Below, piece by piece: positions 25,141 to 58,900 of a DNA stretch of 64,000 bases (position 1 is its first letter; every line of letters starts with the position of its first letter). The stretch comes from Lophium mytilinum (lineage: Eukaryota; Ascomycota; Dothideomycetes; Mytilinidiales; Mytilinidiaceae). Under the pieces are notes generated by a model. That model was not told the origin of the DNA, did no database searches, and worked only from the letters and a program-made list of their open reading frames with translations. A program made the position numbers and the translations under genes. The stretch covers positions 999,609 through 1,063,608 of the forward strand of contig MU004199.1 of NCBI GenBank assembly GCA_010093605.1, given 5' to 3'.

Positions 25141-25250
25141 CACATGCCCATACCTGACCTTCCTTTCCGACGAGTACAAAAACCTCGCTCGCTCTTTTTC
25201 TAGTCTTCCTTTCTTCATGGTCTCGCAAGGAGACGGGGGTGGATCAGAAG
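25141..25250 (+). promoter_or_regulatory. Array unit 1 head (weak boxes, good core)
   Basis: The E-box is degenerate (CACATG at 25141), the TATA position reads AGTACAAAAA at 25173, and the core TCGCAAGGAGACGGGG is intact from 25223. Spacing matches units 2-5. Confidence 0.55.
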
Positions 25251-25570
25251 GATAATTTCTGCTGGTTCATGGAGTTGGATCAACTGCAGATGTGCATATC
25301 ATCATGTCCTGGTTCTGGGAAGATTAGATTTCAAAATTAGGCACTCATGCCTGCTATGGGAGTGTAGGTGGTGTTAGAACCAGGGATACGACATGTCTCA
25401 TGGAGTTGGGGTCGTGCTTTGGGCTGAAGTGGGTGTTTCTGGGCCGCGAAGGATTGGCTTGGTGATCAGCATCATTTGTCCGCGATTGTGAAGGTCGTGA
25501 TGAAGGGACGATACGTGAATTCAATACACGAATGACTCGCTAACCGCTTTGAGATCAGTCAGTGGGCTAG

Positions 25571-25678
25571 CACGTGCACCACGTGCCCCCTGCTGGGAGG
25601 TAGGTATAAAATATCCCGCTCAGTTCTCTCTGTCTTCCTTTCTTCGTGGTCTTGCAAGGGGACGGGGTGGGATCAAAA
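25571..25678 (+). promoter_or_regulatory. Array unit 2 head
   Basis: Double E-box CACGTGCACCACGTG at 25571-25585, GGTATAAAAT at 25603-25612, pyrimidine tract, and core CTTGCAAGG at 25651. Confidence 0.7.
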
Positions 25679-25989
25679 GTATCAAAGGTTCAACTTCATG
25701 GAATCGGATCAACACTTCGAGTTATTGGCTCACTCCATGGAGTCGGACCCCCCGGATTGATGAGCTTGATTACGTCACAGTGGTGGGAAGATGGTAGTCC
25801 AAATACCCCATGGTGAGCCTTTATGCTGGGTCTGGAGTTGGCCTGAAGTTGGTGTCGTGGTTAACCTGAATGAGTTTCGAGGATTAGCATCATCTATGCT
25901 CACTTATGAGGGTCGTGGTGAAGAGACTAGGGGTGAACCTGGCTTAAGAACGAATTAATAGCCGTTTCTAGGATTCATCATGTGGTAAG

Positions 25990-26097
25990 CACGTGCAACA
26001 CGTGGCCCCTGCTGGAGGGTAGGTATAAAATCTCTCGCCTACTCCTGTCCATCTTTCTTTTTTCATGGTCTTGCAAGGAGACAGAGGTGGATAAGAA
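25990..26097 (+). promoter_or_regulatory. Array unit 3 head
   Basis: Double E-box CACGTGCAACACGTG at 25990-26004, GGTATAAAAT at 26022-26031, core CTTGCAAGGAGAC at 26070. Confidence 0.7.
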
Positions 26098-26341
26098 ACG
26101 CCCGGGAGAAAATTCCATGTTGTGGAGGTTGGGAACAGTGTTTGTTCCATTCAAAACAAAACGATTCCAAGAGCAATAGAGATGGATTGGGCGGTGTGCT
26201 GAGGGGTATATAACGATTGATGCTCGCCATCATTTCTTTGCGATATCGCAGATTAGCGAAAGAAGGGGGAAGGATGAGACTTGTTTTGTCTATCAGAGGA
26301 ATCGCCACCGCTGTGCGTTCGAAGGCTGATTTCGTGGTCAG

Positions 26342-26454
26342 CACGTGCACCACGTGCCCCTTACCGAGGACGAGGTATAAAATCTCCCGCTCACTCCTCA
26401 AGAACCGGCTTTCCTTCTTCACAGTCTTGCAAGGAGACGGGGGTGGGATTAAAA
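26342..26454 (+). promoter_or_regulatory. Array unit 4 head
   Basis: Double E-box CACGTGCACCACGTG at 26342-26356, GGTATAAAAT at 26374-26383, core CTTGCAAGGAGACGGGG at 26426. Confidence 0.7.
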
Positions 26455-26878
26455 CCGACACAATAGCATACTATGGGCGAGAGCTACAAAACCATGGCTA
26501 ACCCGAGTCAAATGTGCTGGAGGGCGGGATTCTTTCTCTCATGGAGGGCTAGAGAGTAGAATCAAAAAGTGGATCGTGATGAAGTGATGAGCGAGAGCTG
26601 CAAAACGGATCTACGACACCGCTCATGCGGTGGGGACTGGGACGATCAATCGGAGTCGAAATTCGGAGCGATAGGAGTGGTCGAGGTGTGAAAAACGGGG
26701 TTCAGAAAGCACGATGGAGGTGGATTGGTCGGTGTTCCGGGGGCTTGGTGGTGGTTGATGCTTACCATCATTCTTAGACAGTTCCGAAGAACGAAGGAGA
26801 AGAAAGAGTGAGTGCGGCCTTACCGCCTAGGAAATTAAGCCGAGAAAACCTCCCTCTGACCTTGGATTTAGGTGCGTC

Positions 26879-26989
26879 CACGTGTTTCACGTGGCCCATA
26901 ACTCGGTCCAGGTATAAAATCTTCCGCTCGGTCCTCGAAACTTAGTTTTCTTCATCAAGGTTTCGCAAGGAGACGGGGATGGATCAAAA
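26879..26989 (+). promoter_or_regulatory. Array unit 5 head
   Basis: Double E-box CACGTGTTTCACGTG at 26879-26893. The spacer between boxes has changed but both palindromes are kept. GGTATAAAAT at 26911-26920, core TCGCAAGGAGACGGGG from 26963. Confidence 0.7.
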
Positions 26990-27437
26990 ATCACTAGGGA
27001 TGTTGGAGGGCGGAGATCAAAGAGTTAAGAAGTCTGAAATCATGGGAGAGTGTGAGTGTGTTCAAAATATCTATGGAACTCGATGTATGGGAGAGAGCGT
27101 GGTGTACAAACTCTTTCTCCATTCTGGCCGATGGAGTCGTGTCCGGCGGAGAGAGGGGGTCTATTCGAGTGCGGTGATGATAGAAACCTTGCCGGTGTGT
27201 TGATTGTGTTTAAGAATGGGATGGGTTCAAGACAGCGTTGCGGAAGGATGGTGATGTGCGATAGAATAGATGGTGGAGATTTAGAAACTCAATAATATAA
27301 GTAGTGCATGTTTACTTCTAGGGAGGTAGCTTCTGGAGCTCTATAAGATGAATGCTGTATGCTCTATAGCTACCTCCTTTCCTCTTCCCACTCAATCTCC
27401 AGCCTCTATCCTCCTAACAACCTCATCACGCACGAAC

Positions 27438-27540
27438 CACGTGAACACCCCTAAACTAACATATAAAAACATCCCCTATCTCCCTTTCTCTTCCTTTCTT
27501 CAGTCTAGTCTCACACAGAGAAAGCGACGGAGCAAACCCC
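27438..27540 (+). promoter_or_regulatory. Array unit 6 head (diverged)
   Basis: A single CACGTG is at 27438-27443 and ATATAAAAAC at 27461. A pyrimidine tract follows, and the core is barely recognisable (GAAAGCGACGG). Confidence 0.45.
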
Positions 27541-28018
27541 CCAGGGCCTTCCGGTCATGAATTGCGTGCATTAACCCTACATTCCGCATTACGAATGGCG
27601 GTGCCAGGAACTCGGGAGCGCAACTCTTCTTCCTCCTCGACCTATGGACCGTGGGTGGTATTACCTGTGGAAATATAACGACGGCATGAGGTCGGTCGGT
27701 GGCTGGTACTCTAGTGTACTTGAATTAGGTTGATTTTCATCGAGTTTGGTTGGTGGTGGAGTGCACTGTCATAGATAAGTGGCTATTGATAGGATGGGGG
27801 TAGAGTAGTGTTGAGTATGGATCGGGCGGTGACAATGTTGGACATTTCAATAGGGGTTCAATTGGAATAGCTTTATGCCGTCGCGTTAGAGCGAACCTTC
27901 GAGGTCTCTCGGGATCATACCTTGCTAGAAGATCTTCCTTCAGGCTTGTCAACACGCAGTCCAGCTTACCATGTACAATCTTCCCTTCTCTCACCGCCCT
28001 CTCTAATCACGTTATACA

Positions 28019-28125
28019 CACGTGCCCGACGTGCTCCCCCTCCCACATCTTCTATATAAACCCCCCTCCCCACCCCTCAATCTTCCTTCCTCAAGTTCTC
28101 GCAAGAAGGCAGGGGAGGAGTCAAC
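28019..28125 (+). promoter_or_regulatory. Array unit 7 head (diverged)
   Basis: CACGTG at 28019-28024 with a partial second box (GACGTG), TATATAAA at 28053-28060, core TCGCAAGAAGGCAGGGG at about 28098. Confidence 0.5.
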
Positions 28126-28589
28126 ACACGCGGATCCCTTCCCATGGGGATCAACACCAAAAGCCAATTCTCCCCATGCTGCGGTTGGAGCTCCGGGGTT
28201 TCAAAGTATCCAAAGAAGCCTTGAATGGGAGCGGAGGGGGACTGCAAAAGCTTACTCCGCCGCCCGAAATGGAGTTGGTGGTGTGGGGTTGCCTGGGCTG
28301 GCTGGTGCTCGCCGTCGATGGTTGATGGTGGAGTCTGTCAAAGCCGTGGAGTTGTGGCGTGTGTTAGGTGGAGGTGTTGTTGTGGATCTATAGGGTGGGA
28401 GAGAGGGAGTTAGTATCGGTTGCGCGGTGAAGACGTTGACGCTTCGATGATCGTAGGGTCTTCCCATCCCACTCCTATCAACACACCTCATCCCTCCCAG
28501 TAGCGTCTGGTGACTTTCCACCCCTTATCTCCGTTCCCCCATCCCCTGTCTCCCCATCAGCAGCCAAGCCATGAGCCAGCGCCTGATTA

Positions 28590-28696
28590 CACGTGACGCC
28601 CCCCCTCCGTCGAGTATAAAACATCCCATCCATCTTCCTCCTCTTCTTCTTTCATTCCATCAAGGCCTCGAATGGAGATAGGAGCGGTTCAAAAAT
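28590..28696 (+). promoter_or_regulatory. Array unit 8 head (diverged)
   Basis: Single CACGTG at 28590-28595, GTATAAAAC at 28614, a long pyrimidine tract, and a diverged core (CTCGAATGGAGATAGGAG) near 28667. Confidence 0.5.
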
Positions 28697-29409
28697 TGGC
28701 ACACTCTCACATAATGGGGTATATACCTTCCAACATCATAATCGATGCTGTCTGGGAGGACTTGGGGGTCGGCGAAATCGGCCGGCGAGACCCGCGATGG
28801 GAGTGTCTGGGTGGAAATTGAACATGGCAGAAAGAGAAAGTATGGGGTTTCGGCGGCGTTCAAACTGCGCCAGAGAGCTCGGTGATGGATTTGAATTTGC
28901 AGGGCGAGACGCTAGCTTGTTGTTCATCGTTTATGGTTGGTGGTGGTGGCGGCTGTAGATCAAGCTTGATGCTTGCTAGTATAAGGTAAAGGAGACAGTG
29001 AAGAAACTTAGAGTGAGGGAATGACAGTTAGCTTTGCTTGAAAGCGTTGAAGATCATGACTGAGACAATATTTAGACGTGATCCAGCAATGAGTAGACAA
29101 ATGCAAGATCCAATCCATTTTAAGATGTCTCTAGATGCAAATACGCGTTTCAACCCACCCCAAATGGTTTCCAGAGCTTTTTCTGTCCCTCTTGTTTTGA
29201 TAAGAAAGGTGATAAGAAGTCTTCGTCAATACATGCTCAACGCCCAAGCCGAAATCGATACCTAACATGTGAACAGAGACGCCAAACGCCACATATCCCC
29301 TGCTTACAAGTCCTTTTTGTGCCAGGTTTTCAAAATTGCAGCCCGCGCTAGTATGTACGAGTTAGGGAGCTCGACTGCACGCTCCACTGCTCTGTGATAG
29401 TGAAATCGC

Positions 29410-30968
29410 CTACGATGCTGCAGAAGTCTCGGCGCTCTTGCTTGAGCTTGCCACGGTCTCTTCGGACTCGGATGGCGTGCCGGCGTTGATCGCACGGAAG
29501 CCGTTGGGGAAGATGTTTACCGCGCCTGCTTGGACGAGCTATCATATACATCAGTCCCCAGGTGTCTCAAAGCTAGAGTATGACTAAACTTACCGCACGA
29601 CTCAAATCATCCAGCAAGTCCTCAACATCCTCAATGCCAACACACAGCCGGATAATATCCTCAGGCAGCGCCCTCTCGGCCCTCGTCTTCGCATCAATGC
29701 TGGCATGGCTCATGCGGCACGGCATGCTGATCAAGCTGTTCACACATCCGAAACTCACACTAATCGCCCACAGCTTCGCGCTCTCCACAATTCGCTCGCT
29801 GACATTGACGTCGCCGGTCTCGAAAGACAAGACTGCGCCCGCGCCCCGCGCCATGCTCCAGTGCAAGTCGTACTGGGGGTGTGACCGCAGGCCGGGATAG
29901 CGTACTTTGAAGCCGTGGGACTCGAGGAAGACTGCAATGCGCTGCGCGTTCGATTGTTGCTTCTCCATACGTACGCCGAGGGTCTTTACTCCGCGCAGAA
30001 GCAGCCAGGAGTCGAATGGGGAGAGCCCGACGCCGGACGCGTTGATAGTGAAGTAGAGTTTCTCGCCCAATGCAGGATCGTTCACGGCGAGCACACCGGC
30101 CATCAGGTCGTGGTGGCCAGAGAGGTACTTGGTGCCGCTCTCGTAGACGATATCCGCGCCTAGATCAAGAGGGTTCTGTAGGAGTGGCGAGAGCATAGTA
30201 TTGTCCACGGCCACTATGGCTGAAGGATTGGCGGCGTGTGTTATGCTTGATACTCGAGGGATATCGGCGATTTTGATGAGAGGGTTTGTGGGGCTTTCGA
30301 GGAGGACCATGGCGGTCTTGGGCGAGAGGACTTTGCGGACGGCCTCTGGATCGGTGGTGTCGACATGGTGGACAATGATGCCACCATTGGTCGCGAGGTA
30401 CTTCAGAAGACGGTTTGTGCCGCCGTAGAGATCATCTCCAGTCACGACCTCATCGCCCGGGCGAAGTAGGCGGGTTATCACGTCTAGAGCGCCCATTCCG
30501 GAGGAGACGACGAGAGCGCGCGAGGCGTTCATGATCTTGGCCAGGTGCCGTTCGAGATGGGTGCGTGTGGGATTGCCGGAGCGTGTGTAGTCATACTCTC
30601 CGCCGCCGCCAGTTGCTGATTCTTGCTTGAAGGTTGCGGACTGTGGTGTTGAGTTAGCATCGTTCATTGCGACAGAACGTCCTCGGCTTCTACGGAGAGC
30701 TTCCGCGTGTGACCAAGGCCTCTAAACGGCCTTCGAGTTGAGTATGTACCTGGTATATGGGCACGCTGGACGCATTGTACTGGTCGGTGCTCTCGGTGTA
30801 GACCAATTCGGTCGCCAGAGCGTATTTCCTGCCATTTCGAGGACTCGAAGGCGCTGGGCTGGGCGGTAGGTCGTGTCCGTCGAGATCCAGGCCGCGGAAG
30901 GCCTTCCCTACGCCAGTGACCTTGTCCTTGAAGCTCTCCGGGGGTGGAGACGAGGATCCGGATGACAT
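29410..30968 (-). CDS. STR3: Cystathionine beta-lyase (PLP-dependent), 464 aa, three exons
   Basis: Exons: 30968-30750, 30640-29594, 29538-29410; introns are 109 and 55 nt with all phases closed. The enzyme cleaves cystathionine to homocysteine, pyruvate and ammonia in methionine biosynthesis. The Cys/Met-metabolism PLP fold is clear: YDYTRSGNPTR at residues 88-98, SSGMGALDVITRLLRPGDEVV, LYGGTNRL, VDNTMLSPLLQNPLDLGADI, and ESGTKYLSGHHDLM with Lys244 as the Schiff-base lysine. The later RSHP and ISFG-VNSLISMP segments also fit. The N-terminal 45 residues are Ser/Pro-rich and disordered. Beta-lyase is preferred over gamma-lyase from overall motif resemblance to fungal met-2/metG; gamma-lyase cannot be excluded by eye. 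Confidence 0.9.
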
Positions 30969-45908: not shown

Positions 45909-46113
45909 TGTGATATTTCCGATCACGTGATGTAAGAATTTGGAGGACAATAGATGTCAATTCTATGTAGAAATCTAGCTAGTCTATATACACGTTAGAG
46001 AGGCCTATGCAGGCCTTAATTATACTAGATCTATATAGAAAGGTGTTTCTATAGTAGATCTATATATTATATATATAATATCTAAATATTAACTATATAT
46101 TAAGAATTCTATA
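45909..46113. repeat. LTR, left copy, 205 bp
   Basis: It begins TGTGAT and ends CTATA, probably from an original CA end. It aligns without gaps to 55737-55941 with about 20 differences, all G/A or C/T with the A or T in the right copy. The outer part of this copy is the least mutated part of the element. Confidence 0.93.
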
Positions 46114-47129
46114 TCCTCTTCTTTTAGATCTAATTTACTATTAAATTATATTTATAATAGTACGTTGCGCTTACTACTTTATACTATGCGCTATTAGTAT
46201 ATTAGGCTATTAGCTTCTTTAGAAGCTTTAAAGCTTCTAGAGGCATATAATACTATAAAAGGTGCATTAGTAGGTAGTAATATTATAGTAATATACCTAA
46301 GAGGGGTTTAGAATTCTTTAGAGGCCTGCTACTATATTAGTAGGGGGGATAATAAAGGCATTAGAATATTTAATAGCTTAATAGTAAGGAAGAATTAAAA
46401 GAGATTATAAAGTATTTATAATAGAGGGAATTATAAGGTAATATAAATATTAGTATACTAGCGCGCATTAGGTTCTAATATATAATTAGAGCTATAATAG
46501 CTAATAATAGGCTTATTAGAGATCTTATAAAGTCCCTTATAATCTAGTAAAAAGCTTATAATCTTATATAGGTTTAAGAAGCTATTAGTATATTATAGAG
46601 CAGTAAGTAGTAATCTAAAAGTAATAGATTTAAGAATCTAGAGTATATATAAGGCCTTCTTAATGCTCTTATACTTTTTCTTCTATACTTAACTTTCTTC
46701 TTTAAGGTTTAAGCTTTTTTTAGCTTTAAAGGTTTATTAAAGACTCTTATAGCTTCTCTTTTTATTACTATTATCTTTCTTTATTAATTTCTTTATTAGA
46801 ACTCTCTCTCTCTTAGCTTCTAGGCTGCTTCTTCTTACTCTAAGTTAGTATTATAATATTACTTAATACCTAGCTAGGTTCTATAGCCTCTAGCTTACTC
46901 TATAGAAGAGGTAGAGATAATAAAGGTAATAATTCTTTAGACCCTAGCTATAGTTATAAGGTTCTACGCTTTTATAAGTACTTAGGTATCTTAGCTTATA
47001 AAGCCTTATAGGCCTATAGTAAGTTTCTAATAATAGTTTAGCTTTTTCTCTTAATAAAGCTAATAAGATCTAGTTACTATTATACTTATATTAATTATTA
47101 ACCTTCTAATAGTCTAGAGGTTCTATAAT

Positions 47130-47139
47130 NNNNNNNNNN
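47130..47139. other. Assembly gap, 10 N
   Basis: A run of ten N inside the retrotransposon. Fixed-length short gaps often mark an unresolved join, so the true internal length may differ. Confidence 0.99.
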
Positions 47140-50100
47140 TATTAAATTAGCTAGGTATATATATAGGTAGATAGGTAGGTAGAAAAAAGTACTTCTAGAA
47201 ACTTCTAGAAGCTAGAAGGGTAGCTACTTTATATTATAGTATAATAGTAGATTGTAAGAGAAGACCTAATATTAGTATATATAGATAAAGTAGCTATAAG
47301 AGAGAGAGAAGGGCGCGGAGCGCCGGCTAAAAGGTAGGCAAGGCTAGCGCTAAGCCTAGTTATATAATAGTAATTATATACTAGAGGGCATATAACGCTG
47401 TTATATATATTAGAAATATATTATAATAGAAGTTACATTATAGCTATAATAATAGCTTTTAATAATTCTATTTTAATTTCTTAAGCCTTCTAATACTATA
47501 CTATATCTTTTAATTATTTAAACTATACTAAATACCCTCTAAAGTTTAAAGGTAGTAGTAGAGCTTAGAGAAATATACTACTTTAAGAGTTTCTTAGTAA
47601 TATTAGAAATAATAAACTAATTTTAAATAAGAACTATAGCTATACTTTATGCTTTATAGGGCTTCTTAAATAGTATTTAGGCTTAAGGGTAGATTATAGT
47701 AAGAATTCTAGGGCTTCTTCTACCTTTAGGGCTTGCAACTACTACCTAAGAATATTCTTAGAAGGCTGTTAGTTTAGTAAATATATTTAAGCTTATAATC
47801 TAGATAGTTCTTCTCTCTACTAAGAATTCTATATAGAATATTATTAGTAGGGTAGTAAGAGGACTTATTTATTCTAAGGTAAGTTTAGCTTTACTTTTAG
47901 AGTATTTTAGAACTTAGCTAATACCTATTATAGAAGAATAGACTTTAATAGCTTATTAAAAGACTACTAGGGCTTATATTTAATAAGGTTGCTATAATAT
48001 TACTAAGTTTATATCTTCTCTTTATAACTAAGAATCCCTTAAAAACCTAGCTAAGAATGTAGTATACTTAGCCTTAGCTATATAGCTACTAATAGAATTA
48101 ATTTAAAGAAAGACTACTATACTACTATATAATCTAGGTATTTCTTATACTTTTAAATCTCTAATAGCTTAACGTTATCTATAGAGCTCTAGTAGTGCTT
48201 CTACTTAGGCTTCTAGTTTAAGATCTAGCTTCTAGTAATTATCTATAGCTGTATTAGATTTAGAAAATATAGCTACTTTAGGTTCTAGTACTTAAGGTCT
48301 AAGGTAATACTCTCTAACCTCTTCTACTTAGCCTTTAACTTCTTTAACTTCTTTAACCTCTTATTATTCTTCTTTAGGTTCTCTATAGCGCTCTTAAGAG
48401 CCTACTTCTAATATACTATTAAGCCGCCGCTTATTCTAGTTATCTATTAGTAATAATAATAACTCTACTAAAGAGACCCCTTTAAACTCTACTTAGTATT
48501 AGATAGGCTTTCTAAATACTATTCTCTAGAAGAATAGGGCTAGTAAGTATAGCTAAAATATATTAACTTAGAGCGCGCCTTTAAAATAGCCTTAGAAGAA
48601 TAATAATAGCTATTCTAGTAGTAGTAGTAGCTATAGGAGTTCTAGTAGAAGAAGTTCTAGTAGTAGAATAGCTACCTAGAAGGACTAAGAGTGTATTAGC
48701 TTAGCTAGTATTAATAGAAAAGTATTAATTTTCCCTCCCCTTCTAGATATAAGAAGGGTTAAGTATAATAGAAGTATAAGCTTAGCTTAGTTAATCTCTA
48801 ATATAGGTTCTTAAATTTATTATCTTTTTAATTCTCTAAAGATAAAATATAGCTAAATAAGTAATAATAAAGAATTAAACGCTTAAATCTAAATTAATAA
48901 AGGAAATCTAGGTAATAAATATATAGAGTTCTTCTAATACTCTATTAGCTTAAAATAGAAGCGCTATTTAAGCTCTCTTGCGCTTTCTTCTGCGCAACTC
49001 TATATTAAGAGCTTAGGTGGGTTATATTATAGGTATATTAAAATTACTATCTAAATCTAACTTATAATTACTACTAGTATTCTTATTATCTTTAATATCT
49101 ATTATGCTAGTATTACTGCTAGAGAAGCTCTCTAATTAAATATTAGAGTTAGCATTCTTATCTAAGGACTTATTATTTATGCGCATTTTAGTATTCTTAG
49201 CTCTTAAGTTAATTTCTTTATTCTATAGCTCTATAGTATTATTAGTTTAAATAATAGTATTACCCCTTAGCCGCATAATAATAGTATCCCTATTATACTT
49301 ATTATTATCTTAGTATATAGCATTAGGTAATTAGGTAGTAGTATTTATACTCTTAGGTGTTCTATTACTATCTTAAGCTATTTCTAATAGTTTTCTATTA
49401 TTAGTATCTATAGCTAGTACTAATGCATTATTAGGTTATTCTATAGGTGCTGCGTAATTACTAGTTCCCTGCGGAATATTAAGCTTATCTTAACTTATTT
49501 TTAGCTTATATATATAAACTTTCTAATAGGTATTTATAGTAGTCTTACCTGTATCTTTATATTATATAACTATAAAGCTAGTAACCTATGCTAGTATAAT
49601 AGTTAATTAACCCTTCTTAGGTCTCTTTTTCTTAGTAGCCTGTTAGTCTCTCTTAAAAACTCTCTCTTTAAAATCTCTTAGTATTTAATGTAGCTTTAGT
49701 TTAGGCAGTTTCTAAGTATTCTTCTTCTCTTTCTAGAAGAGCTCCGCGCCCTTATGCTGCTATTTTAATTAATACTTAGTAATCTTCTAATTCTATTCTA
49801 CTTTAGAAATTATAGTAAACTTAAACTATAGCTTTCTATTAGTATTATCTATATCTAATATATCCGCAATAGTATTATTACTAGGTTTAACTTCTTCTTA
49901 ATATACAGCACGCTCTTTATTAGTATTATTAAAATCCTTTTAGTTTTAAAGTACTTAGTTATCTTCTAATATATTATTAGAATATTCTAAGCTATATTTA
50001 GGGTCTTTTTAGTTCTAAAACTTTATATAAGCATTAATGCGTGTATTTACTAACCTATTACTATAAATAAGGTTCTTTAATACTTAATTAGTAGGCGTTT

Positions 50101-53100
50101 AAAGCGTATAAGTACTAAGAGAATAAGTAGTAATAATCTTAAATAGACTAAACTATTTTACTCTAAATTTTCTCTTAACCTTATTTTAAAGGAGTACCTA
50201 GGAACTAATCTTCTATTAAGTAACTAGATACTTCTTAGATAGAGGTTGTAGATTCTATAGGCCTGCTATAATTACTTTCTTTAGTAGCTAATCTTCTACT
50301 AGTACATGCATATATTAAACTTTCCTAATGCAGGCTAAATAATACTCTAATTTAGCTTCTTTATCTATAGTCTTATTAAGAGCTAGTACTAAAGTATTAT
50401 TAGGTACTTAAGGATGTCTACTATATATAAGGTAGTAGGAAGTATAGCTATAGAAGGTATTCTAAGTATATATTATATATACTATAGCCGGCAACTAGAT
50501 ATTTTATATAGCTATATCTTAATTAATTATTAGCTTTATAAGAATATTTTCTAAGACTCTATTAAGCCTCTCTACCTTACTATTTACCTAAGAGTAATAT
50601 AGCGTTATAATATTATAGTAAGTCTTAATAAGCTTTTATAGTACTATAATAACTTTAGAAAGAAAGTTTAAACTATTATTAAAAGTAAACGCTGCTAGGG
50701 GTCTATACTAGTAGTAGATTCTTTTATAGATAAATATTACTATAGTCTTAGCTTAAGTATTAGAAAGCGCTATAGCTTTAGGCTAACCTATAGCGTAATT
50801 AATAGTAGTAATAATCTAGTAATTCCTATAGATTAATTATAGCAATCTGCTAATTAAATTAATGCCCTATTTATTAAATAGATCTTAATCTTTAACCTAA
50901 TAAAATATTAGTTTATAAATAATCTTTTCCTTCTATACTAGCTAGCATAAGGTATACTTATAAGCGTATTTATTAGTATTATAACTTATTATTAGCTACT
51001 AGCTATATACTTATAGGGCCTTCTGCATACTATAGTATATAAAGTAGCCTAGCTAGTAGGTTCTATTAAGAACCTATTAATAATAGGAAGGTGCAATATA
51101 TAGTATAGTATTCTTAAGAGTATATAGATCTAAATTACTATTAGGTTTATAAAAGTAATAGTATAGTTCTTCTTTTAGAATTATAAAGTTCTAATATAGG
51201 GATAGATAGATTCTTTAGTAGTAAAGCTAGTGTTATTTTAATTTAGCCTTTAATAGCTATTTAGAGAGAGTAGGCTTAAGGCCTATTATAAGGAACTTTT
51301 TTAAATCTTTAATATACTCTATATTAGAATCTTTATACTTAAAGAGGGCTATAAGGCGTTCTTAGGTAAAATTAGGGCGCCTACTAATTATATTTAGTAC
51401 TATTATAAGGGCTTCTAAGTAATACTATATTATAGGGTTATACTACTAGAAATCCTTAATCTATTAAGTAAGCCTTAGTAAGGCTTTCTTAGTAGTTTAT
51501 AGGTATTATAATAAGTAGTAATTAATTATAATTATTAATTCTTTCTCTTAGATATAGTATTACTAAATTCTAAGTACTTTCTTAATTACTAGAAGTTCTT
51601 TTTTATAAACTAGGTAGTTTAATTTAGCTTTATTAAGCTTCTAACTATTAAACGCAATAGGGTGCTACTTACCGTCTTCTTTTTATTAGAGAAGAACTAT
51701 TCTAATAGTAAAATTAGAAGCGTCTATTTTAATCTAAAAGAGCTTTAACTAGTTAATAAGAGTAAGTATAGGGCGTTTAATAAGCTTTTACTTAAGAAAG
51801 TTAAAAGTAATTTAATAGCTAATATTCTATATAATAGCTTAGTACTTTTTCTTTTATATTATAGTGTTGCTTTCCTTTAGAAGCTTATAGAGAGGTGCTA
51901 ATATATAGGTAAAGTTTTTAATAAACTTTTAATAGTATATTACTAGTCTAATAAACTATTAGACCTTATAGATATTAGTAGAAATAGGCTAATACTAAAT
52001 AGCGTCTAGTTTATTAGTTATTAGTTTTACGGTTCCGTAAGAAACTATATAGCTATAGAACTTAATAGTTTCTTAAGTAATTAAGTACTTATTAGTTTTA
52101 GTAAATAGTTATTTCTTTCTAAAAGCTTTAAATAATAATTAGAGGTAGTTAAGATACTCTTTTAATATTTCTAAAAACACTATAATATTATCTATATAGA
52201 TAAGCATAAATTAATATAGATATAGTTGTAAGGTGTTATTTATAATAGCTTAAAAGGTAGTAGGAGCGTTATAGAGGCTAAAAGGTATAACTAGAAATTT
52301 AAATTTCCCTTTAATTATATTAAAAGTAGTCTTATAGATGTCTAATTAATAAACGCGCAGCTAGTAATATCTAGAGGTTAGATTAATTTTAGTAAAGAAT
52401 CTAGCCTTCCTAAATAACTATAAGTAGTTATTAATGCGTAGTAGGGGGTAGGTATTTTTCTAGGTTACTAGATTAAGTGCTCTATAGTTAATATATATTT
52501 ACTACTTACTATTTAGCTTTAGAATAAAAAGAACTAGAGATTTCTAGGTACTAATAGACTCTTAGATAAGGCCCTATTCTAGTAGCTTATAGATCTATTA
52601 GGTCTATTCTTCTATTTAATAATATAAGAGGCAGTATATAGTATTATTTACTAGCTTTATATTTCTAGTATTAATTAGATAGTTATATCTATGCTTAGGC
52701 GGTAGAATATTAGGAAGGATATTATAGAAATAAGGTCTATACTCTTTAAGAAGCTCTTAGAACTTCTCTTGCATAGAAGTAGTAATATAATTAATTAGAA
52801 GTAATAAATTCTTATCTTCTAATAGTAGATTAGTGCCGGGTTATAGTATCTAATCTAGTATTAGTTTATTAGAAGCTTTTATAATATAAAGGTAAGTAGA
52901 ATTAAGCTTATCTACTAAGAGCCTCTTATACTCCTAATAGGATATTATATTAATAAAACCCTAGTATTCTAGTTTAGGGAGACTAAGGTCTATAATAGGG
53001 CTTAATATATTAAGCTAATAAGCTACTAGTTTAATCTTTAGGTTGCGGCTAACCTGCGTTTACAAGGTAACGGAATTAGTAAAGAAGTTAATAATAGCTT

Positions 53101-55736
53101 AGTATTACTATAGCTAGGTTATACTAAGAATATATTAATACCCTTTAAGGTCTAGAATATATGCGGTTAGAGTACCTAATAGCGTATAGATCTTAAATAG
53201 AATCTTTAAGGCTTTTATACTAATTATAGTAGTACCTAAGGAGAGTTTAACTACCTTAGGGGCTATTATTTTAATGTTTCTTAGCTAATATTAAGTATGC
53301 TTTAATAATATATAGATAGAATTAGCGCTATAGTTAATTAAAAAGGTAGTTCTTTTCTAATAGTTAGATAGTTCTAAAGTTTTCTTATATTCTAAAAGAT
53401 ATTTATCTAGAGAGTTAAGGTAGTAGATTCTTTCTTCTATTAATTTAATAATAATTTAGTTAGAAGAATTATTAAAGGGCGGCTAATTCTTCTCTATTAT
53501 AAGTTTATAAAAAGTAGAAGTTTTATCTTTTAGGTTAGTTAGTTGCTCTAAGGCTACTAACCCTTCTAGTTTTCTAATAGCTTTTTAGCTAGCTAAGTAT
53601 AGTTATATTTAATATAGCCCTTCTTACTATAATTATAGTACTTACGCGTATTAGTATTCTATTAAGTATTACCTTTACTACGTCCGCTATAGCCTTAACC
53701 GCGTTCTTAAAATCTAGTAGTATTTCTACCTTTAAAGGCGTTAAGTTTAGCGTTATTTTTAGCGTCTAGATATTTATATTTATTAGGATTAATATTAGTT
53801 ACTTAGAAGTAATTATTATTTAATTCTTTATTAGCCCTAGAGATAGTATTAAGGCGGCCCTAATAGTTTCTTATTCTCTTATACTAGAAGATCTAATACT
53901 TATTAGCTGTAGCAACCTACGCTATCTATTTATTAAAATTAGGAGGGGCCTACGCTTAGGCGTTAATATAAAACTTAAGGCTAGGTTTTAAACCTACACG
54001 GGCACGTTAATATACTTTAAGATTAGATAAAGCTATATTAAGAGGGTATATATAAGCAGCCCTAATAAGCTTATTAAAGAACTACTAAGTACTAGTTATC
54101 TATACTATCTTATTAAAGTAATATTAGCGTTGCTTTAGTATATCCGCGCTTTTATAGTAGCGGCTAAAGGTAGTAAAAAACTAATCTAATATAGTAAACT
54201 TAGTATTACCTTAGTAGTACTATTAAATATCTTAATTCTATTAAACGGCTACAGTTCTAGCTATATAGCTACCGGCTAGCTAAATCTTTTAAGTTTCTAG
54301 CATCTACTAGTAAACCTATTAATAGGCGTCTACTTATATAGTAATAAAGTTGCGCATCTAAACTATCTAGATAGAGTATATATTATTATTAACTTTACCT
54401 AACTATATAGCGGAAGTCCTTATAAGGACTTTAGGTAGTACTATTAAATAAGGTTCTCTTATAGCTAATATTTTCTTAAAGGCTTATTAGAGCTCTTATA
54501 TAGTTTATTCTAATAGACCTTTATTATAGTCTAGTATTAGATAATCTAAGGAAGCGTTAGATAATAGACCCTAAGAGTAGATAGTACTCTAAGAAGTAGG
54601 CTACTACTAGGGGTTATCTAATATATTCTTAACGCGGGTATAGTAATTAGAAACTATAGCTTATAGCTATCTTAGTATAGTAGCCTACTACTACTATATA
54701 GAAGAAGCTAATATAAAACTAAAGAGTTCTAGTTTCTAGTAATCTATTATATACTCTATTATAGAGGCTTAAAAGCATTAATAGCTATCTAAAGAAGGCG
54801 CAAATAATAGCCCTTAATAGGTAAGCTCTAGATTATAGGCCGGGGCACTACTATAAATAATTAGAGGACCTTAAACTAGTAGCTTAATAGGTTCTAGGGC
54901 AGCGGCCTGCTTAGCCTATAAGGCTAATATTAGATTAGATAGATTATAAAATATAGTGCTAAACTAAGAGAGCCTTTAGAAGAGTTCTTAAAGGTTAAAG
55001 AATAATCTATTAAAATAATAATATCTATTACTAAATATAAAAGAAAGCTAAGAGTTATAGAATATTTAAGGATAAGAAAGAGTAGAAAAGAGTTAATAAC
55101 TATAATATAATTAAATTAAAGAGTAAGAAAAGGGTGCTAAAATAGTAGTATTAAGTTTCTTTCTTAAATACTTTTTAATATCCTATTAGAGAGGAAGAAT
55201 CCTTAAAAGGACTTCTCCGCCTTCTTCTTATAATTAACTTATAAGAATTTCTAATTACTATATAATTATTAGGCTCTATTAAGCTATAATATTATTCTTC
55301 TTACTATTCTACTATTAATCTTACTTTAGTAGCTAATAGAACGCGTAGTTAGTTACATAGAAGTATTAAAAGGAATAGAAAAATCCTATAGTAATATTCT
55401 AGCTAAGAGCTCTTTAGACCTATACTATTTAATTTTTATAAGAATATTTATAATAGGCGGTTATACTATAATACTAGCCTAATGCTAATTAGGGGCTATT
55501 ATTAATAGTTATTATTAATTACTAATTAGGTTAATTTTTAGAAACTATTAATACGGCTTAGTATTATTATAATAATCTAAAAATTCTACTAATTATAGAA
55601 GCTAATATCTTCTATTATTACTAAGGGTTAATTATAAGAATATAGCCTTAGCTAGCTCTATACTATTAAGTTTAAGAACCTAATAGCTCTCTAAGAAGGC
55701 CTTAAAGGCGGCTAGAACTATAACTAAGCTACTAGA

Positions 55737-55941
55737 TATAATATTTCTAATTACATAATATAAGAATTTAGAGAATAATAGATATTAATTCTATATAGAA
55801 ATCTAGCTAGTCTATATATATATTAGAGAGGCCTATATAGGCCTTAATTATACTAGATCTATATAGAAAGGTATTTCTATAGTAGATCTATATATTATAT
55901 ATATAATATCTAAATATTAACTATATATTAAGAATTCTATA
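55737..55941. repeat. LTR, right copy, 205 bp
   Basis: Gap-free partner of the left LTR, more heavily shifted to A/T. GGCT follows directly at 55942-55945, matching the bases before the left LTR. Confidence 0.93.
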
Positions 55942-58900
55942 GGCTTAAAAGACTAATTCCCTCTCTATATAAGCGGACCGATATAAGCTGCTAAATATAC
56001 AAGCTAATGAGCTTAGGTAATTAAAGGGTATTAGCGTGGATCTCGATCTGAAGAAAGTGGCCTTTCTTTCGTAATTTTTGAAACATTGATTCCGTCGGCG
56101 ATCACCAGGTAATGCGCAACCACAACCACGGAAACCCGTAGAGATGTTTATCTCCTACAACGACCATGACACCACTTCGGAGAGGTTTTGCTTTTATCAT
56201 GAAGGAGAAGCAGGCGGACTGTAGGTAGATTGACACTCGCCGCGACTGGACAGAAGCCGAACCCATATCTCTTCAGTGTTCTGGTGTTGGTGCTGATGAG
56301 CGTCTTAGCAGCAACTGGACCCAACACTAGTCCATTGAGCACCGTCCTTCAGATTTTCGACAGGCTTATACTTCCCGGACTCATCGAATTCATGCAAGGC
56401 CGTGTTGATGCCTTGCTAATCGTGGAACGAATCTGATGTATGCGATTTCGAGCACGTGTTTTACTCGCTTAGGGTGTCGCTTAGGTGGATTCGGCGTGGG
56501 TGAAATTGTATCAACGGTGCTCTACATCTGGCTAAACCCTCGTAGAGCTAAAGCTTCCTTTCTCAGCCATCAGGTGTTGTTGATGAACAGCTGGCATGTT
56601 TCCCAGTTTCGAGCCTCAGCCATGGAAGAGCCGTCCTCAGGCTTTAGACTTTAGATAGCAGCTTTTGCTCTAGTCCAAACTGATGCTGAGATCGAGAATT
56701 GTGATCGCTTGACGATTCAGAAGACTCGAAAACTTTCCATAGACCGCGAGGAGACGGTAGCTGATAAGTACCGAGAGGCAGATGTCGTTCAGAAGGAGTT
56801 CTTTGAAAATATTCACCATGGATCAATCGTTTTCCGCGGGACCGATAAACACATATTCCCTTACTGACCAGCCCGTCATGAGCCATACCTGTGCTCGGTA
56901 TTGAAGGCCCATTGTAGTAGCTAAGACCCCTTTTGCTCATGGATCCATTTCTTTCCCCAGACTGACGCTACGATCTCCGGACATCGTAGTAGAAAACGGG
57001 TTGTGTACCGTAGGAGATACAGTAAATCTCGTTTCACCCTGGCTTTTGTGGCGGACTGCCAGCGAGCTCTTGCTCATAAAGTCAAATCAAACAGTACCTT
57101 TGATGTCAATGGTGATCACGCTCCTGCCTCCAAGGCTTCCGATATATTCAACGGCCCTACTTGACTGCTAGAGTGACACATTCCGACCGTTCTCCAGTTT
57201 GACAGCCGGATTTAGATCGACTGGCAACTCCAGGATCGTGTTAGATTTGGGTTCCGGCTGATGAAGTCTTCCAGAGAAGATCCAAACAGAGACATCGCCA
57301 GAGTTTCCACATCGAGTCCTTCATCCGGGAACAGCTCATATCTTAGCGTAAATCGCATGACATAGAAGTACGTCTAGGATTATGCACACTTCTAGTTATC
57401 ATACCAGTAGACAACACGGCTGACATCGTGGCGCTCAACACATCGGATACCCGTTTACTCTCGGAGCCATACAGCTCCATTTCCATTGTTTCTGCATCGA
57501 TTGACAACACCATGACCATGGTTTGAGAGGGTTTCGACTCGGTCTCCCGTAAACGGCTCGTTCCACGGATGGTCCAAGCAGAGACATGAAAGTGAGGGAA
57601 TTCCTGGTGTCGGGCCGGGCCATGCAAATTCTCCAGATTTGTTTCCGATTATGCATGTCGAGGGAGGCAAAGGTAAACACCCCAACAAACATCGTTCATC
57701 TGAGTTTGAGGTTGCGGAATTGCGTGAAGGTGATAGACTCGCGCTGCTATCGTTCAATACCCAATCTTTTCTACAAACCGTTCCACTGCCAAGTCATTCA
57801 AGAGAATTCTAAGTAGAGGCACGTAGCGATTGTAGCGAGAGTTTGAACTGTTTGCAACAGCATTCAAGAATACAGGCTAATAAATTTTGGATCGTATGCT
57901 TTGGTAGTGATCGGAGATCACGGCTCCAAGAGCTGCCACGCGAGCAGACAGGATTTCGGCACCATCCTTCTCTTCCGCTGTCAATTTTGGTGATCCATAG
58001 AGCCATGACGACTAGAACAAGCGTATATGTCGAGTCGCGTTGTGGCCTAATCACGTCCACCAGGAAATTCTCAGCCAGACACATGGAACCGAATATGTTT
58101 ACGTTTTGCGCCGAACACCATGGTCGGCCTAGCATTGTCGTATTGGTCATTTCATATCCTTCTTGAAGGGTTCAACGGCGGCGGCGCCAGAGAACACAAC
58201 TCAGACACCAATAAAGGGCGTTGAGAATCCGGTGGAGTTATTGATGACATACGAGTAGCGATTTTGCCATCCGGGAATTTACTGCGACAGCTTCGCCTTG
58301 CTCATAGATTAGAGTTCATTGTCCTTTGATCTCACCCTTATGTACCGTTCTTTCGGTTTGCGGTGAACCAGGAGGATGTATGTCTAGTGATGGTTTAGAC
58401 CCCAGCAAAAGAACCCCGGAGCCATCGGTTCCCACTACAATTTTGGTTAACCGAACGAATAACCATTTCATCCTATTTATGACGATTTGGACACCAGCCT
58501 CCTTCTTGTGAGATTCGGAGCAAGTTTTGACATGAAACATCACACCTTCCGAGTTTCTTGGTTGAGACCGCAACTGTAACAGCACACGGAGGAAACCGAG
58601 CGAGAGACACATCTCTCCTCGGAGGATTTCATAATCTCACACCGGCTCACCTAAGCTCACTACAAAAACTCTCAGCCAGAAACATCGGACGTATGGAATA
58701 GCGTTGTTGCTACAATTATCCATGGATTCTCTCGACGAGAAGTTCGACCCAAGAACATATCCGCGTCCCATCGCGAGTCTTCGAGATGCCATGCAGCTAT
58801 TCCAAATCTCAGCTTACTCTCACCCATAGGTGTGAAAGGTTTATTTGTTTCTCTGCGCTGCCCATCAGTGCTTTGACTGGGGAAACGCACTCAGACTCAT

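Follow-up and report, generated by a model that had tools for sequence, protein, structure and literature searches.

Tandem units in Lophium mytilinum point to a dispersed family of short, putatively RNA-only genes with E-box promoters and a measured cassette

In the 64 kb stretch of Lophium mytilinum DNA analysed here (the window), eight plus-strand modules lie in tandem and form one array of a family that extends through the genome. The reading that we favour, on balance and on the evidence of sequence, is that this array represents a single locus within a scattered superfamily of short, bHLH-controlled, RNA-only genes carrying measured cassettes; we infer transcription of the units, a bHLH factor as their driver and a function for the cassette. 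A first-pass annotation of the same DNA had proposed tandem short noncoding transcripts or very small peptides under a common E-box promoter, of which the former is still the best interpretation, while the latter found no support. If the units are transcribed, they would make up a large class of genes with RNA as their only product, sharing one switch and carrying an insert of measured length, and would raise the question of the use made of the many Argonautes in those fungi that have them.

Organization of the array

The array lies, as originally described, between the 3' ends of two genes, an ArfGAP gene on the plus strand (Pfam ArfGap, 8.1e-21, from an internal exon) and a cystathionine beta-lyase gene on the minus strand, and direct inspection of the window confirmed the positions of the eight heads (Table 1). 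The double E-box CACGTGNNNCACGTG occurs four times in the window, heading units 2–5 with the spacers CAC, CAA, CAC and TTT, respectively; the double palindrome reported for these units, with its altered spacer in unit 5, is thus borne out, and the pattern fits the selection on binding sites that had been suggested. A box had also been placed exactly 32 bp after the start of the E-box in units 1–5: GGTATAAAAT does begin at precisely this distance in units 2–5, and unit 1 keeps the geometry with degenerate boxes. The core is a seven-copy repeat family within the array, with a more diverged version in unit 6. Taken from the G of its GCAAGG-like word, the distance behind the TATA box is 46–55 bp in all units except unit 6, close to the 42–52 bp previously given for all eight. 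All six plus-strand TATAAAA sequences in bases 1–46000 of the window fall inside array units, and 11 of the 29 CACGTG sites in the window lie within 25571–28590.

Table 1. Features of the eight array units (window coordinates)
Unit	Span	Strand	E-box	TATA-type element	Core	Cassettes
1	25141..25570	+	degenerate, CACATG 25141	TACAAAAA 25175 (TATA-like)	25211-25249	25244-25272 (TCAGAA-N19-ATGG); 25331-25359 (TCAAAA-N19-ATGG)
2	25571..25989	+	double, 25571/25580	TATAAAA 25605	25640-25678	25673-25701 (TCAAAA-N19-ATGG)
3	25990..26341	+	double, 25990/25999	TATAAAA 26024	26059-26097	weak only: 26092-26120 (TAAGAA-N19-ATGT); 26156-26185 (ACAAAA-N20-ATGG)
4	26342..26878	+	double, 26342/26351	TATAAAA 26376	26415-26453	departing: 26449-26476 (TTAAAA-N18-ATGG); 26562-26590 (TCAAAA-N19-ATGA); 26689-26717 (TGAAAA-N19-ATGG)
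5	26879..27437	+	double, 26879/26888	TATAAAA 26913	26951-26989	27017-27045; 27062-27090; 27106-27134 (ACAAAC); 44-45 nt apart
6	27438..28018	+	one exact, 27438	TATAAAA 27462	diverged	weak: 27532-27560 (GCAAAC-N19-ATGA)
7	28019..28589	+	CACGTG 28019 and GACGTG 28028	TATATAAA 28053	28087-28125	28201-28228; 28244-28272
8	28590..29199 (3' limit approximate)	+	one exact, 28590	TATAAAA 28615	28656-28694	28689-28717; 28772-28800 (GCGAAA); 28860-28888

A genome-wide family of heads

Heads combining an E-box with TATAAAA numbered 175 genome-wide, a figure that includes some double counts and other repeats, against 14 for the reversed control, an enrichment beyond chance. The family comprises about 160 strict heads above the control, and perhaps 270 units by a rough correction. 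Measured upstream from the TATA box, E-box positions peak at about 24, 34 and 45 bp, and 99 of 114 E-boxes occupy 11 of 29 positions, picked after the histogram had been viewed. Arrays are dispersed through the genome in both orientations, with C5 being rich in heads (26 of the 96 used from C1–C12), and among 20 ORFs lying beside arrays eight gave Pfam matches above the cut-off, to ordinary families throughout. A double E-box does not by itself mark an array: with N5 spacing it was found 84 times against three, most of the listed copies appearing, by eye and uncounted, to lie away from the listed heads.

The presence of CACGTG sites at a set distance from the core promoter is the arrangement expected of bHLH target promoters of the Pho4/NUC-1/Cbf1 type. 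The heads share this core site with the PHO-type promoters of Neurospora, where NUC-1 goes with GCACGTG and NUC-3 with GGCACGTGA (PMC12506109). Those, however, are promoters of protein genes (PMC12506109), whereas the present E-boxes, at fixed spacings from TATA, stand before units that appear noncoding.

The first-pass annotation had named genome-wide hits revealing a dispersed transposon as grounds for refutation, and half of this condition was borne out, in that heads are numerous through the genome, in arrays of both orientations. On this view the units would be pieces or remnants of a scattered family of mobile elements. A BLAST search with the whole head matched the window array only; a 25-nt core, with up to three mismatches, was found in five window units and at four other loci (control 0), which places one subfamily core at four further loci. 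Alignment extends beyond the head in the paralogues L033/L034 (330 and 187 nt) and in two units of L065 (225 nt), and units 1 and 2 as well as units 3 and 4 align weakly. At the thresholds used, however, most units share heads, motifs and spacing and not a body, the window array is free of the RIP signature displayed by the AT-rich block at 46–56 kb, and the motifs have been kept whereas spacers and flanks seem saturated, the spacers also looking neutral. A mobile element family is a very unlikely source of the units.

The bipartite cassette

Behind the heads lies a bipartite cassette, consisting of GG[A/T]TCAAAA, 18–20 unconserved bases and ATGG, which was found 126 times genome-wide against 11 in the control (13 against 1 in a stricter form). 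Pairs with a gap of 18–20 numbered 76 in 90 units, compared with a permuted mean of 8.8 and a maximum of 20 in 2000 permutations; 49 of them were in the 56 units from loci chosen by the double E-box together with the window, and 27 in the 34 units chosen only by E-box and TATAAAA. With strict motifs and a gap of 17–21, a cassette was present in 53 of the 90 units and in four of seven in the window, where units 3, 4 and 6 hold only departures from the strict form. Nine strict cassettes lie in the array, and the other ~60 kb of the window contain three on the plus and four on the minus strand. Of the 63 cassettes listed on C1–C12, 32 have a strict head no more than 3 kb away, where random shifts would predict 1.3, and 31 have none at that distance; 13 are on the same strand as a strict head and in the 400 bp behind it. 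An EM motif scan placed 223 instances of the cassette in 76 of 89 units; as its training set was these same sequences and its threshold was lax, the count is not relied upon. Both the cassette and the genome-wide extent of the family were absent from the first reading of this DNA.

When units 1–5 were compared ungapped at the first cassette, identity was 0.25 in the spacer, 0.78 in the hexamer and 0.65 in the core; the ATGG block averaged only 0.32, because unit 4 is shifted by one and unit 5 lacks ATGG there. Under a lenient cassette definition, the paralogues L033/L034 have identical columns at 24 of 57 spacer positions, 43 of 51 motif positions and 59 of 78 positions in between.

Cassettes are located mostly at +50..+320 and follow the direction of the promoter: within +45..+320 of the 90 units, 71 have the same orientation and none the opposite. 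With the gap widened to 17–21, there was a single reverse cassette at +225..250; all others were at +300 or beyond, in the territory of opposing units. Since the cassette points with transcription, it would be expected to work as RNA. A plausible, if minority, alternative is a DNA site, on which a rigid complex would assemble along the double strand, for instance with an HMG-box-like protein contacting GATCAAAA and another domain contacting ATGG, 24–25 bp apart; transcription would then be incidental or serve to clear or load the site. A gap held to within one base with free sequence is typical of a helical ruler, and the E-boxes are likewise spaced in ~10-bp steps; on the other hand, free-standing DNA sites as a rule tolerate inversion, and the 71:0 agreement with the promoter, the confinement of most cassettes to the region behind it and the excess of G over C on the sense strand of 70 of 89 units all argue against such a site. 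The fixed length, free sequence and direction would be explained together by a co-transcriptional signal, in which TCAAAA leaves the polymerase exit channel while the active site is at ATGG and the G-rich stretch, leading to pausing or early termination; ~17–20 nt of nascent RNA lie inside RNA polymerase II. However, we know of no bipartite pause signal of this kind, so many dispersed copies would be left unexplained, and we regard this reading as unlikely.

Coding potential, folding and known families

Very small, fast-evolving peptides could account for the recurrence of ATGG and for the longest ATG ORFs exceeding those of shuffles (median of 51 versus 38 aa); the mean for open frames is above that of shuffles (61.9) on the sense (70.8) as well as the antisense (67.2) strand. 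Against this, stops per codon in frames 0, 1 and 2 after 225 ATGG are 0.029, 0.030 and 0.032, with no frame signal, the gaps are of 18, 19 and 20 nt and paralogues differ by 1-nt indels, leaving no conserved reading frame of the kind that marks a protein-coding family. No ORF common to the eight units was seen in their ORF listing, none of eight window ORFs gave a Pfam match above the cut-off (one laminin-EGF match fell below it) and the longest plus-strand ORF among these, of 74 aa, had no homologue. Peptide products are extremely unlikely. Distances from ATGG to the next CAAAA are uneven modulo 3 (42/30/17).

Spacer hairpins were no stronger than those of shuffles. Transcript folding, computed on no more than the first 60 of the 90 units, had a z of -0.18 +/- 0.10 and was not unusual. 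As regards a Pol III type of gene, TTTT occurs within +60..+300 in 29 of 89 units, the shuffled fraction being 0.40. Screening of the 64 kb window against 4227 covariance-model families of Rfam yielded no gathering-score match, no tRNA was found in it under a bacterial-code setting and a narrow search of the open-access literature returned nothing relevant on such arrays. Provisionally, for one genome, Rfam and this limited literature search, the pattern matches no known RNA family.

Possible mechanism and comparison with known systems

In the proposed mechanism, one or two E-boxes before the TATA box, set in ~10-bp steps (about -24, -34 and -45), are the probable binding sites of a bHLH factor. 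The likely start of transcription is where a pyrimidine tract ends, about 40 bp downstream (TTCA), and the resulting RNA would be ~250–300 nt long and often carry one to several tandem cassettes, each with GG[A/T]TCAAAA, 18–20 unconserved bases, ATGG and a G-rich stretch. Our tentative first choice for the role of this RNA is an Argonaute-linked small-RNA precursor, in which the cassette ends may mark a measured insert of ~19–25 nt for processing or loading. Next comes a multivalent RNA on which an RNA-binding protein would dock, a credible but doubtful option; for plain docking, a gap of fixed size in RNA without structure would be surprising.

The genome contains about ten genes, or pieces of genes, with a Piwi domain. 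Of eight Piwi loci, two are no more than 4 kb from an array, an association noted post hoc. A bolder and rather unlikely extension is a fungal guide-RNA repertoire, in which hundreds of bHLH-switched noncoding genes, with tandem cassettes of variable insert, would be cut into small RNAs and loaded on an expanded set of Argonautes, some encoded beside the arrays, giving an ascomycete a store that resembles piRNAs or CRISPR. Because two single spacers had no exact second copy, a guide role gains no target support from them; with two mismatches allowed, they matched themselves and, respectively, two and one further places, where the controls gave none, and such numbers are too small to weigh. When 30 spacers were joined into one query, there were no matches, even to its own source loci, and the query is hence uninformative. 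A search of viral contigs gave 11 matches.

In C. elegans, a ~50-nt upstream motif precedes the 21-nt RNA of the 21U-RNA (piRNA) genes, which resemble the present units as many tiny autonomous transcription units with a conserved motif, a variable ~20-nt piece and clustered loci (PMC3597512). The motif at a fixed distance beside a variable piece of ~20 nt recurs here, in many small units, as TCAAAA-N18-20-ATGG. In contrast to 21U-RNA genes, however, the variable piece is flanked on both sides and repeated within the unit, the promoter is of an ordinary E-box/TATA type and a 5' U is not preferred (T at 0.29 in position 1 of 48 spacers of 19 nt). CRISPR-type arrays combine a conserved repeat with a variable spacer of fixed length, as the cassettes do, but here the host is a eukaryote, the repeat amounts to two short motifs with a loosely conserved middle and the spacers appear neutral. 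The meiRNA of Schizosaccharomyces is noncoding and carries clustered Mmi1-binding UNAAAC sites; like it, the units would yield noncoding RNA in which short A-rich sites recur and might tie up a protein, although their motif is [T/G]CAAAA, in general not UNAAAC, and is bipartite, with a fixed gap, at many loci. YTH-domain genes are present in the genome.

Genomic context and coding potential

The window corresponds to G000:C19:999609-1063608 of the Lophium mytilinum genome, which comprises 43.18 Mb in 24 contigs. As proposed in the first-pass annotation, the array of eight units (u1-u8) is placed between two 3' ends, that of an ArfGAP gene on one side and that of a cystathionine beta-lyase gene on the other; the Mytilinidion resinicola counterpart of the latter displays 99% identity in a protein comparison. 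A HET-domain (heterokaryon incompatibility) gene is found at window 3286-5271 (-) and a long run of the 9-base tandem repeat gggagtaat at 20720-20860. The stretch at 46000-56000 is AT-rich, its G+C content being 27%, and its RIP signature is strong (TpA/ApT 1.77; CpA+TpG/ApC+GpT 0.16).

The suggestion that the units encode very small peptides was rejected, as they show no reading-frame signal: their ORFs do exceed those of shuffled sequences in length, but in sense and antisense alike and without frame preference. A fold test against shuffles, covering at most the first 60 of 90 collected units, revealed no unusual structure.

Conservation and genome-wide distribution of the heads

All eight heads (E-box, TATA box and core) were found as described, although small corrections were necessary, the boxes of unit 1, for example, being degenerate. 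Among u1-u5, mean ungapped pairwise identity is 0.69 for the E-box block, 0.88 for the TATA box and 0.65 for the core, and 0.24-0.31 for upstream flank and body stretches, with weak similarity left in some bodies (u1/u2, 65% over 112 nt; u3/u4, 71% over 66 nt). The heads seem to be mainly what selection or repeated conversion keeps in the array units.

Genome-wide, the double E-box with a three-base spacer occurs at 27 places (two for the control). Of the 20 regions fetched around such sites outside the window, 16 contain one or more E-box+TATA heads, which in some cases lie away from the double site. The strict head, E-box-N15-39-TATAAAA, was counted 175 times against 14 for a reversed control; this count takes in one site twice (C5:1243918/1243927), as well as heads resembling copies of other repeats, with three look-alike pairs among the matches listed. 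Since TATAAAA is present in 29 of 49 units gathered regardless of the exact TATA box, the excess of 161 heads over the control would correspond, as a very rough estimate, to 270 units in the genome. Heads and cassettes, [T/G]CAAAA-N18-20-ATGG, group into at least 41 clusters with two or more members inside 3 kb among the matches listed, in which heads are complete to C12. Contig C5 has 26, and C6 one, of the 96 strict heads taken from C1-C12 among these matches. The pattern CACGTG-N5-CACGTG occurs 84 times (control, three), mostly off the listed heads as judged by eye among the matches listed; paired E-boxes may thus have another, broader use at this spacing.

Promoter geometry

A set of 90 units was drawn from the fetched loci (E-box at -22 to -50 from a TATA box; units sharing their first 60 nt counted once), including seven of the eight window units, unit 1 failing the criteria. 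E-box positions relative to the TATA box show three maxima (-24/-25, -33 to -36 and -43 to -45), a geometry that implies regulated transcription from the TATA box, predicted as likely to be by RNA polymerase II, with polymerase III as the alternative. Fungal bHLH factors such as NUC-1 are described as binding GCACGTG (PMC12506109). The window array runs wholly in one direction, while unit orientations are mixed in other arrays.

The cassette and a possible Argonaute link

The cassette was first seen in distance histograms and tested afterwards. At gaps of 18-20, 76 pairs were found against a permuted mean of 8.8 (maximum 20 in 2000), a result that holds in both locus subsets; genome-wide there are 126 cassettes (control, 11). 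Window units 1, 2, 5, 7 and 8 contain the strict form, from which units 3, 4 and 6 depart in hexamer, gap or ATGG; nine strict plus-strand matches fall in the array, with three plus and four minus elsewhere in the window. ATGG-to-ATGG spacing is raised at ~31-58 nt (44-45 nt in unit 5). Most forward cassettes are found at +50 to +250 and a few farther on, and in +45..+320 cassettes pointing with the promoter outnumber those against it 71:0, which favours action as RNA or through transcription, while the strict gap favours a ruler. In the paralogous loci L033/L034, identical columns number 24/57 in spacers, 43/51 in motifs and 59/78 between cassettes; spacer length thus matters, and its sequence apparently does not.

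In the leading model, ranked ahead of a docking RNA, a DNA complex and polymerase pausing, the cassette would serve small-RNA processing. Consistent with such a role, the genome holds ten Piwi-domain (Argonaute) genes or pieces at eight loci, stops inside some matches possibly reflecting introns or decay, and arrays lie 3.0 and 3.9 kb from two of these loci (C1:829-840 kb and C15:439 kb; P 0.002, post hoc, under random placement regardless of gene density and with one contig's extent approximated). Against it, the spacers display no 5' U preference and the two single spacers searched had no exact second copy in the genome.

Narrow term searches of the open-access literature listed no relevant paper on such arrays. 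The 1981(-) unit of fetched locus L023 contains GAGAAGATTAGCATG, which is present also in U6 snRNA, a sharing that is probably due to chance.

Positions of neighbouring genes, Piwi-domain loci, look-alike heads and a mixed-orientation array
Feature	Position	Strand	Remark
Cystathionine beta-lyase gene	window 29573-30667	-	100% identity to Lophium mytilinum protein
Piwi locus	C1:829218-839602		three genes in tandem
Piwi locus	C1:942505		
Piwi locus	C1:2120465		
Piwi locus	C1:2188517-2189567		
Piwi locus	C1:1345		match with 15 internal stops
Piwi locus	C2:2071323		
Piwi locus	C12:1292186		
Piwi locus	C15:439442		
Look-alike head pair	C3:1885293 with C5:1438093		
Look-alike head pair	C8:1212228 with C8:1212766		
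Look-alike head pair	C7:2212796 with C12:236205		
Array of locus L022	~C15:472.2-474.9 kb	three plus, four minus units	partly convergent pairs
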